64,000 bases of DNA from contig JANQQU010000003.1 of the NCBI GenBank assembly GCA_028284905.1, forward strand, positions 126,001 to 190,000, given 5' to 3'. Under the pieces are notes generated by a model. That model was not told the origin of the DNA and ran no database searches. It saw only the letters and a program-made list of their open reading frames with translations. This document shows positions 8,664 to 60,278 of the stretch, piece by piece (position 1 is the stretch's first letter; the number at the start of each line of letters is the position of its first letter). The DNA comes from Calditrichia bacterium. GTDB lineage: Bacteria; Calditrichota; Calditrichia; RBG-13-44-9; J075. Made by a program: the position numbers and the translations under genes.

Positions 8664-8800
8664 AAACGAAATCGGCCCAATGGGCCTTAACCATCCTTCG
8701 CGAACAAAACATAGCCCTGCAAGGGCGACATATCTAAGCCCGGGACGCCAGCCCCGGGCTTATCCAACAAAAATTGTTAAGCCCTGTAGGGGCGACATAG
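8664..8800. repeat. Cluster of REP-like palindromic repeats
   Basis: Three related units: 'GGCCCAATGGGCC' (8673-8685), 'AGCCCTGCAAGGGCGACA' (8713-8730) and 'AGCCCTGTAGGGGCGACA' (8780-8797), plus an 'AAGCCCGGGA...CCCCGGGCTT' hairpin (8736-8761). The same units recur at 34089-34443 and 42865-43043. Confidence 0.75.
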
Positions 8801-57794: not shown

Positions 57795-59141
57795 ATGACT
57801 ATTCGTCCGGGACATTTTGTAGCATTATTCGGTGGCGCTTGTGCTGGCTCCGAAGCGGCTTACCAATTGGCTAGCCGTGGGATTTACGTAGCGGTATTTG
57901 ATCAACAGGCATTGCCTTATGGAAAAATTGAAGATGGTTTGCCTAAATGGCACGTCAAACTCCGCAACAAAGAAGAAGGTAAAATCGACAACAAACTATC
58001 GCATCCGAACATCTTTTTTGTACCAAAAACCCGCCTGGGAGAAGATGTACAATTTGATGATATTGTCAATAATTGGGGATTCAGCGCAGTGCTGCTGGCC
58101 AGTGGTGCCTGGCGGGATCGCCCCCTGCCGGTAGACGGGGTCGATAATTACCTGGAGAAGGGCTTTTATTATCAGAATCCATTTGTCGATTGGTTCAATC
58201 ACAATCACGAGCCGGATTATAATCGCTTTCAGTATGACGTTGCTGACGAAGCGATTGTCGTCGGCGGCGGCCTGGCCTCGATTGACGTGGTAAAAATCCT
58301 CATGCTGGAATCCACCGTCCGGGCGCTGAAAGAAAAGAAGGGCATCGAAACCGATGTCATTACCCTGGAGCATAAAGGCATTCCGAAAACCCTGGAAAAA
58401 ATGGGCGTCGATTTTGCGGATCTTGGCGTAAAGGGATGTACATTGTATTACCGCCGCCGTAATATGGATATGCCCCTGAGCACCATGCCTCCCGGCGCTA
58501 CCCCGGAAAAAGTTGCAAAAGTGCAGCAGGTCCGGGAAAAAATTCTCCGACTGGCGATGGATAAATATCTCTTCAAATTTCATCCCTGCTCGAAGCCGAT
58601 CGGCCTGATTACCGATAATGGGAACTTGAAAGGATTGAAGTTCGAGTCTACGGAGATCGTTGACGGCCGGGTAAAATCCATCCCAAATAGTGAATTCTCC
58701 GTGGAAAGCCCCTTGGTCATCTCCTCAATCGGTAGTATTCCGGAACCGATTCCCGGCATTCCCACCAAAGGGGAACTGTTTATTATTTCCGATGAAGATA
58801 CCGGTAAGCTGGACGATTACGAGCATGTCTTTGCCCTCGGTAATGCCGTTACCGGCCGCGGTAATATCCGTGAGTCCGAGCTGCATTCCCGGAAAGTGAT
58901 TCATCATGTCATGGATAATTTCTTTCACTGGTCGGAAGAAGACTACCAGCAGGCAGAAAGCGCCGGTTGGGAATCAGCGACGAAAAATGCAAAGCAAATT
59001 CGTTCCGTTTCGGAAATTGAAGGCTTGATTAGCCGCATTAAAGAACGGCAAACTGCTGTTGGTTATGACGGCAATTACACGGCCTGGGCAGATCAGCATC
59101 GTCCGGTACGCTTGGAAGATATGACCGCTGGTCACGAATAG
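57795..59141 (+). CDS. Ferredoxin-NADP reductase/adrenodoxin reductase-like flavoprotein
   Basis: A 448-residue FAD- and NAD(P)-binding protein. The FAD site reads 'VALFGGACAGSEAAYQLASRG' (a variant of G-x-G-x-x-G), then 'GFSAVLLASGAWRDRPLPVDGVDN', the NAD(P) site 'EAIVVGGGLASIDVVKILM' and 'VFALGNAVTGRGNIRESELHSRKV'. This order matches the adrenodoxin reductase/glutamate synthase small-subunit group, without their Fe-S domains. Substrate and partner are unknown. 'CTGGAGG' nine bases before the ATG fixes the start. It is followed by a strong terminator. Confidence 0.82.
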   Translation: MTIRPGHFVALFGGACAGSEAAYQLASRGIYVAVFDQQALPYGKIEDGLPKWHVKLRNKEEGKIDNKLSHPNIFFVPKTRLGEDVQFDDIVNNWGFSAVLLASGAWRDRPLPVDGVDNYLEKGFYYQNPFVDWFNHNHEPDYNRFQYDVADEAIVVGGGLASIDVVKILMLESTVRALKEKKGIETDVITLEHKGIPKTLEKMGVDFADLGVKGCTLYYRRRNMDMPLSTMPPGATPEKVAKVQQVREKILRLAMDKYLFKFHPCSKPIGLITDNGNLKGLKFESTEIVDGRVKSIPNSEFSVESPLVISSIGSIPEPIPGIPTKGELFIISDEDTGKLDDYEHVFALGNAVTGRGNIRESELHSRKVIHHVMDNFFHWSEEDYQQAESAGWESATKNAKQIRSVSEIEGLISRIKERQTAVGYDGNYTAWADQHRPVRLEDMTAGHE

Positions 59142-59270: not shown

Positions 59271-60278
59271 ATGATATCTTTGCAACAATTCTTCCGAAGC
59301 CTATTACTTTTTTTAGCAGGCTTCTCCACCGTTCTTCTTTCCCAACCGGAAGGTTATGAACAAATTATTCCTCGGGGCAGATTAGCTGCCGTAACCCAAC
59401 CCGTTTTTGTGACGGCAGCAGAGGCGGAGATCGCTGCGGAAACCTGGGTGCTCGGCGTTTACATCGATGGAGAAGCCCGGGCCTACAGCCTTAACTTGCT
59501 CAACGCCCACGAAATCGTAAACGACTATTCCGGCGATCTCAAATTTGCCGCTGTGTGGTGACCGCTGGCGAATGCTGCTGTCGTGTACAGCCGGGAATAT
59601 GACAATCGTGTTTTTACCCTGGAGCCCTCCGGTGGACTAAAAAATAGTTCGCTGATTATACAGGACCAGGAAACAGACAGCTACTGGTCGATTATGACCG
59701 GCACTGTGCTGGAAGGAGAAATGAAAGGCACCAAAATGGTTGAGCTGCCCATCGGAGAAAAAATGCAGTGGAAACACTGGCAAGAAAAATATCCGGCAAC
59801 AAAAGTGTTATCGATAGAAGGGCGCGAAGATACCAAACCGGGCTATCAACGCTACTTTGCCTCCGATATGGGATTTCGCAACTCTACCGCCAGCGACACC
59901 CGCCTGGCGACCAAAGCGCCGATCTTTGCATTTCATTTTCAGGGAAAAAGCTACGCGGTTGCCCATAAAGATTTTAGCGATGGGAAAACCTTTGTTATTG
60001 GCAATAAGCAAATTTTTCTCTTCCGCCCGGCTGGCTCGGAAATGTTTCTCTCTACCAATGCGTTTATCGCTGACAAAGGAGATTTCGCAGAAAAAGACGG
60101 TAGCTGGATTCACCTGAGCAGCGGCAAAGCATTTGCCCCGCAGAGTAGAAAGTTTATTGGGAATGGGGACACGAATCCGGAAAGTTTCAACGGCTTTGAT
60201 ACCTTTTGGTATAACTGGAGCCTGAATAATCCGCAGACAGCCATTCTTGGTACCGCGGATGCCAACGCGCGGAAATAA
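59271..60278 (+). CDS. DUF3179 protein, probable selenoprotein (in-frame TGA at codon 97)
   Basis: One frame of 335 codons is interrupted only by TGA at 59559-59561. Before it: signal peptide ('FFRSLLLFLAGFSTVLLSQPE') and 'EARAYSLNLLNAHEIVNDYSGDLKFAAVW'; after it: 'PLANAAVVYSREYDNRVF', 'SSLIIQDQETDSYWSIMTGTV' and 'GFDTFWYNWSLNNP'. DUF3179 proteins read 'VTWCPLC..AVVYDR' here, so TGA stands exactly at the first conserved Cys. The second Cys is Ala. A hairpin of SECIS type follows the TGA. Selenocysteine (residue 97) is therefore likely; a nonsense mutation is the alternative, but no other damage is visible. 'AAGGA' lies before the ATG. Function of the family is unknown; an exported redox role is inferred. 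Confidence 0.78.
59562..59594 (+). promoter_or_regulatory. Putative bacterial SECIS element
   Basis: Downstream of the TGA, 'GCTGT' (59577-59581) pairs with 'ACAGC' (59587-59591) around the loop CGTGT, and 'CCG' (59562-59564) with 'CGG' (59592-59594) with a 12-base bulge on the 5' side. The loop begins 21 bases after the TGA and contains G-U, as needed for SelB. Confidence 0.5.

Follow-up and report, generated by a model that had tools for sequence, protein, structure and literature searches.

A divergent DUF3179 gene in a Calditrichia genome that probably encodes a lone-selenocysteine protein

Described DUF3179 proteins and the gene in the window

Proteins of the DUF3179 family (pfam11376) are listed among the prokaryotic selenoproteins with the motif UxxC/T (PMC9312934, PMC13188914), an assignment that PMC9312934 credits to Zhang and Gladyshev 2007; these two lists bear out the suggestion, made in the first-pass annotation of the DNA considered here, that some DUF3179 entries are labelled as possible selenoproteins. 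The 64-kb window, by which we mean the whole stretch that was analyzed, harbors a gene of the same Pfam family, whose probable selenocysteine (Sec) likewise lies in a UxxN motif of the family's kind. In the published type, however, the third residue after Sec is Cys or Thr; the window protein has Ala at this position and is of a UxxA form that lies outside the published motif. Since DUF3179 is an already listed selenoprotein family, Sec in the window gene is not new in itself, and the gene is a divergent branch of a known family rather than a new one.

DUF3179, for which we take the RefSeq name to be '(seleno)protein', also includes Cys-type members (CPLC, CTLC, or CPLT at the site), one of them in the same genome (G000:C85:37613-38503). 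These share the two-lobed domain and the residues H80, E81, N84, S120, G121, D132, and W139, invariant as in the window protein, whereas Sec is replaced by Cys, the SECIS pairing is missing, and the identity to the window protein amounts to only 19-26 %. A short, one-lobe Sec form (~220 aa, motif YUPL[VIER], Calditrichota) has the Sec position and the SECIS-like hairpin in common with the window gene, but matches its first lobe only and constitutes a separate supported clade. In the literature searched, which was incomplete and did not comprise the 2007 source paper, no description of either the UxxA clade or the one-lobe Sec form was found. The host genome (G000) also has two one-lobe genes with TGA and hairpin (C10:16715-17176, L054; C39:42986-43381, L055). 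In a relative (L056; G003:C6:313500-319500), three short DUF3179 genes lie in tandem, two of them with TGA; the first gene of this cluster has AVYSGFF at the site, hence neither Sec nor Cys, and seems to be degenerate. Moreover, a very divergent DUF3179 relative (L057; G003:C21) has a TGA within LTFUVVCNSG, which corresponds to UxxC.

The gene and its putative Sec site are located in the window as follows:

59271..60278, + strand: probable DUF3179 selenoprotein gene, ATG at 59271 to TAA at 60276-60278, 335 codons, two-lobed domain
59559..59561, + strand: in-frame TGA, codon 97, very probably read as Sec, aligned with the invariant family Cys
59568..59570, + strand: codon 100, Ala (from sequence and alignment), at the second-Cys position of CPLC members

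The TGA is the only one in the whole 335-codon frame, which has no other defects and is preceded by a Shine-Dalgarno-like AAAAGGA just 5' of the start. The read-through translation matches PF11376 (DUF3179) with E=2e-46 and 159.2 bits over residues 40-323 (profile positions 6-292 of 292), exceeding the curated Pfam cut-off of 27 bits. In the alignment, the column of the TGA holds Cys or TGA in 23/23 full-length homologues, and the window protein does not contain a single Cys residue. The first-pass annotation, which had described one frame with a lone TGA at codon 97, its coincidence with the conserved DUF3179 Cys, the replacement of the second family Cys by Ala, and a resulting lone Sec, was accurate in each of these respects, and the lone Sec even proved to be a feature of the whole UxxA clade (see below). 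Gene calling with TGA as stop splits the gene into fragments of 96 aa and 231 aa; UxxA-type genes are easily missed because gene callers that treat every TGA as a stop cut them. Within the 64-kb window, the DUF3179 gene is the only real gene that is open for at least 80 aa on both sides of a TGA, a second match of this kind being explained by the ordinary termination of a 553-aa gene.

Conservation of the TGA and the selenocysteine machinery

Among the Calditrichota orthologues first found (51-56 % identity), 5/5 have the TGA at the same codon. On its 5' and 3' sides alike, the first two codon positions vary less than the third. A scan of GTDB genome contigs, which was unbiased toward TGA or Cys because its patterns came from other parts of the protein, raised the AAVWUPLAN members to ~30 species, with TGA in all of them, and further sampling (~400 Acidobacteriota, ~400 Planctomycetota, and ~400 genomes of one gammaproteobacterial order) yielded more TGA members. 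According to a maximum-likelihood tree of 89 DUF3179 proteins, the UPLAN/UxxA lone-Sec clade is monophyletic (support 95/100), with 39 UxxA members, one SxxS member, and not a single Cys member (n=40). Position 100 is Ala in the window protein and all 39 Sec members, and the clade is devoid of a conserved resolving Cys. A comparison with relatives, proposed by the first-pass annotation as a test for a pseudogene, revealed a TGA retained at this very codon and no random stops.

The hosts of the clade are labelled as belonging to ~seven phyla, i. e., Calditrichota, KSB1, Acidobacteriota, Gammaproteobacteria, Planctomycetota, Latescibacterota, and Krumholzibacteriota; since the named hosts are all MAGs or uncultured bins, single phylum placements may be binning errors. 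One member (L091), for example, is labelled Deltaproteobacteria, yet falls within the Acidobacteriota sample. The sole non-Sec member of the clade (L102/L175; Planctomycetota, G084) has Ser (TCT) in the motif SPSSN, and its genome keeps selB. Cys together with Ala at position 100 (CPLAN/CPLAD) occurs in three Planctomycetota genomes (L176-L178), two of which were placed in the tree, both outside the UxxA clade. With Cys97 and Ala100, these proteins indicate that the single-chalcogen arrangement exists with Cys, too.

The host genome (8.55 Mb, with Calditrichota MAGs as close relatives) was also searched for the genes of Sec synthesis and insertion, another check put forward at the outset, and selA, selB, selC (tRNA-Sec), and selD are all present, the set that characterizes a selenoprotein-producing bacterium. 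SelB has 665 aa and reaches 349.5 bits with both frame pieces (cut-off 242); the adjoining selA is split at contig ends, with pieces on C46 and C28, and the tRNA-Sec has a UCA anticodon (73 bits). The selD gene (C21:22816-23739) carries an in-frame TGA of its own (motif CAGUASKIGPGD) and is hence a selenoprotein gene as well. Within the same class, selB was found in 13/13 genomes with a TGA-bearing DUF3179 gene (split over two contigs in G010) and a TGA-bearing DUF3179 gene in 0/10 genomes without selB (Fisher p=0.016 across the class, a value that ignores relatedness). The six genomes of family f6 have no selB over the cut-off, and their DUF3179 copies are all of the Cys type. Among 26 UxxA-bearing genomes tested, selB exceeds the cut-off in 21 and is present as two pieces in one more; it went undetected in the other four, all of them MAGs, which we read as genome incompleteness.

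The hairpin and the decoding of UGA

Shortly downstream of the TGA, the following element was identified:

59575..59593, + strand: SECIS-like hairpin, stem 59577-59581 with 59587-59591, outer pair 59575-59593, loop CGUGU at 59582-59586

Its 5-bp stem starts 16 bases after the TGA, and the distance from the TGA to the loop is 20 nt. A small hairpin beginning 21 bases after the TGA had already been proposed by the first-pass annotation; its presence is corroborated by covariation, but the start has to be moved to that of the best-supported stem. Numbered from the T of the TGA as position 1, the recurrent pairs over 55 unique Sec genes are 17:35, 18:34, 19:33, 21:31, 22:30, and 23:29 as well as the loop pair 24:27, while pair 20:32 is often broken and many members hence have an internal mismatch in the stem. 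Pair 21:31 is Watson-Crick in 55/55 of these genes and occurs in three types (C-G, U-A, and A-U); position 21 being the third base of a codon, the synonymous codon choice there follows position 31. Covariation is likewise seen between the loop positions 59582 and 59585, which are 24 and 27 in this numbering. In most members, they coincide with the third bases of Val (or Ala-Val) codons; these synonymous sites are Watson-Crick in 49/52 cases as compared to 37 expected from shuffling. For the structure as a whole, covariation amounts to 0.339, versus 0.163 when shuffled, and slid pairings do not exceed 0.13 (47 sequences). In the non-Sec homologues (Cys or Ser, n=41), the pairs are mostly absent, with 21:31 in 16/41 and 24:27 in 13/41. 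A covariance model from which the window sequence had been left out retrieved the window hairpin with 50.5 bits (E=4e-13) as the only strong match in the window, and strong matches over the whole host genome were confined to the window gene and the two short DUF3179 genes.

The bacterial SECIS model (PMC13188914) comprises a loop of 3-9 nt located 16-37 nt after the UGA, an upper stem of 4-16 bp, a G among the first two nucleotides of the loop, an N1-N2 loop pair, and an MFE of at most -7.5 kcal/mol. The window hairpin agrees with this model in its loop (5 nt), stem (5 bp), spacing (20 nt), G at loop position 2, and C-G loop pair; the MFE is -8.8 for a 39-nt stretch, although the fold with this energy and the conserved stem are not identical in detail. 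Folding of 59562-59600, which had been suggested as a further check, was uninformative as to energy, the hairpin being no better than shuffles (z ~ +0.5). What speaks for the hairpin is the comparison between genes, by which a role as coding-region SECIS is well supported.

Sec insertion is very likely in view of the TGA at the family Cys, the Sec machinery, the clade-wide TGA, and the covarying SECIS-like hairpin, and we consider it nearly certain that UGA codon 97 is decoded as Sec to give a full-length, 335-residue DUF3179 protein. The initial proposal of Sec in place of Cys is thus favored by the machinery, the conserved TGA, and the compensatory changes in the hairpin alike. A pseudogene or sequencing error, with the TGA as true nonsense mutation or artefact, might be suspected as a single TGA interrupting a frame that is open elsewhere resembles a young nonsense mutation, but is refuted by the conservation of the TGA, given that the same codon recurs in 39 clade members from independent assemblies, with no other defects and with compensatory RNA changes, and has a negligible probability. 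Barely more probable is that the UGA is read as a non-Sec residue, by a reassigned code or near-cognate read-through. The frame would be open whatever residue the TGA gives; however, TGA terminates 7/39 window ORFs of at least 250 aa (some overlapping spurious frames counted), the genome has a complete Sec system, the hairpin fits the SECIS rules, and the aligned residue elsewhere is Cys. A reassigned code in particular was rejected on account of the use of TGA as stop in the window, the Sec system, and the SECIS-like hairpin.

The protein and the possible role of Sec97

The protein encoded by the full-length frame would consist of two lobes, and a further gene is situated directly upstream:

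59376..59885, + strand: first lobe, ~residues 36-205, with the probable Sec97 and most family-invariant residues
59886..60260, + strand: second lobe, ~residues 206-330, repeats the first lobe in diverged form and lacks the Sec/Cys motif
57795..59141, + strand: FAD/NAD(P)-dependent oxidoreductase-like gene, directly upstream of the DUF3179 gene

Family-invariant residues in the first lobe are H80, E81, N84, S120, G121, D132, T135, W139, Y192, and Y195. The halves are repeats according to hhalign of one against the other (probability 99.2, E=1.4e-19), and the AlphaFold2 model of the protein is confident, with a mean pLDDT of 91.9. Searches of the PDB by sequence and fold gave no informative relative (TM-scores of at most 0.2), and a fold search of BFVD returned one convincing match, the 236-aa protein A0A1V0SD44 of the giant virus Indivirus ILV1 (E=4e-8, probability 1.00, TM 0.39/0.54). 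This viral protein of unknown function provides no functional clue. Across 32 loci, no general conserved gene neighbor emerged; in three Calditrichota genomes, the FAD/NAD(P) oxidoreductase-like gene alone recurs close to the orthologue, any functional link to the DUF3179 protein being tentative. Elsewhere in the window, an Acido-Lenti-1 RNA (RF01687) was detected at 8713-8758 on the - strand (47.9 bits).

In the mechanism that we propose, SelB and tRNA-Sec would decode UGA codon 97 as Sec, directed by the coding-region SECIS hairpin with its loop 20 nt after the UGA. The N-terminus was judged by eye to be signal-peptide-like, from which we infer that the protein is exported; the full-length, 335-residue product would then act in the periplasm or at the cell surface. 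Here, the selenol of Sec97, which would be located at the probable active site, in the first of the two beta-rich lobes together with the conserved His80/Glu81, may serve as a one-selenol redox center, a role that we regard as reasonably probable. Since the UxxA clade keeps no resolving Cys, reduction of the oxidized Sec97 would fall to an external thiol or reductase.

On the other hand, Sec97 might bind a metal or cofactor, or have a structural role, instead of being a redox catalyst, which seems rather unlikely but deserves some weight. The UxxA clade has no conserved Cys partner, as would suit such a role, and some planctomycete relatives have Ser at the Sec site with the second Cys kept. 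However, CxxC and UxxC relatives suggest thiol/selenol redox chemistry at the same site, and Sec as a pure ligand is rare.

It is conceivable, albeit still somewhat doubtful, that UxxA represents an obligate selenoenzyme lineage, i. e., that a lone selenol within an exported fold of two lobes performs a chemistry for which Cys is no substitute, and that the gene, in passing between phyla, entered only Sec-decoding genomes and was lost rather than converted to Cys. If this holds true, the restriction to Sec-decoding genomes would follow from the inability of Cys to replace this chemistry.

What appears to be new is the UxxA clade with its lone Sec and no resolving Cys conserved, along with the one-lobe Sec form. 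With them, the DUF3179 selenoprotein motif, listed as UxxC/T, would come to include UxxA as well as UxxV/I/E/R, the latter in one-lobe proteins. Cys counterparts exist for nearly all selenoprotein families (PMC13188914); with 39 Sec versus 0 Cys members across ~seven phyla, the UxxA clade offers a natural test case for a chemistry that may need selenium.
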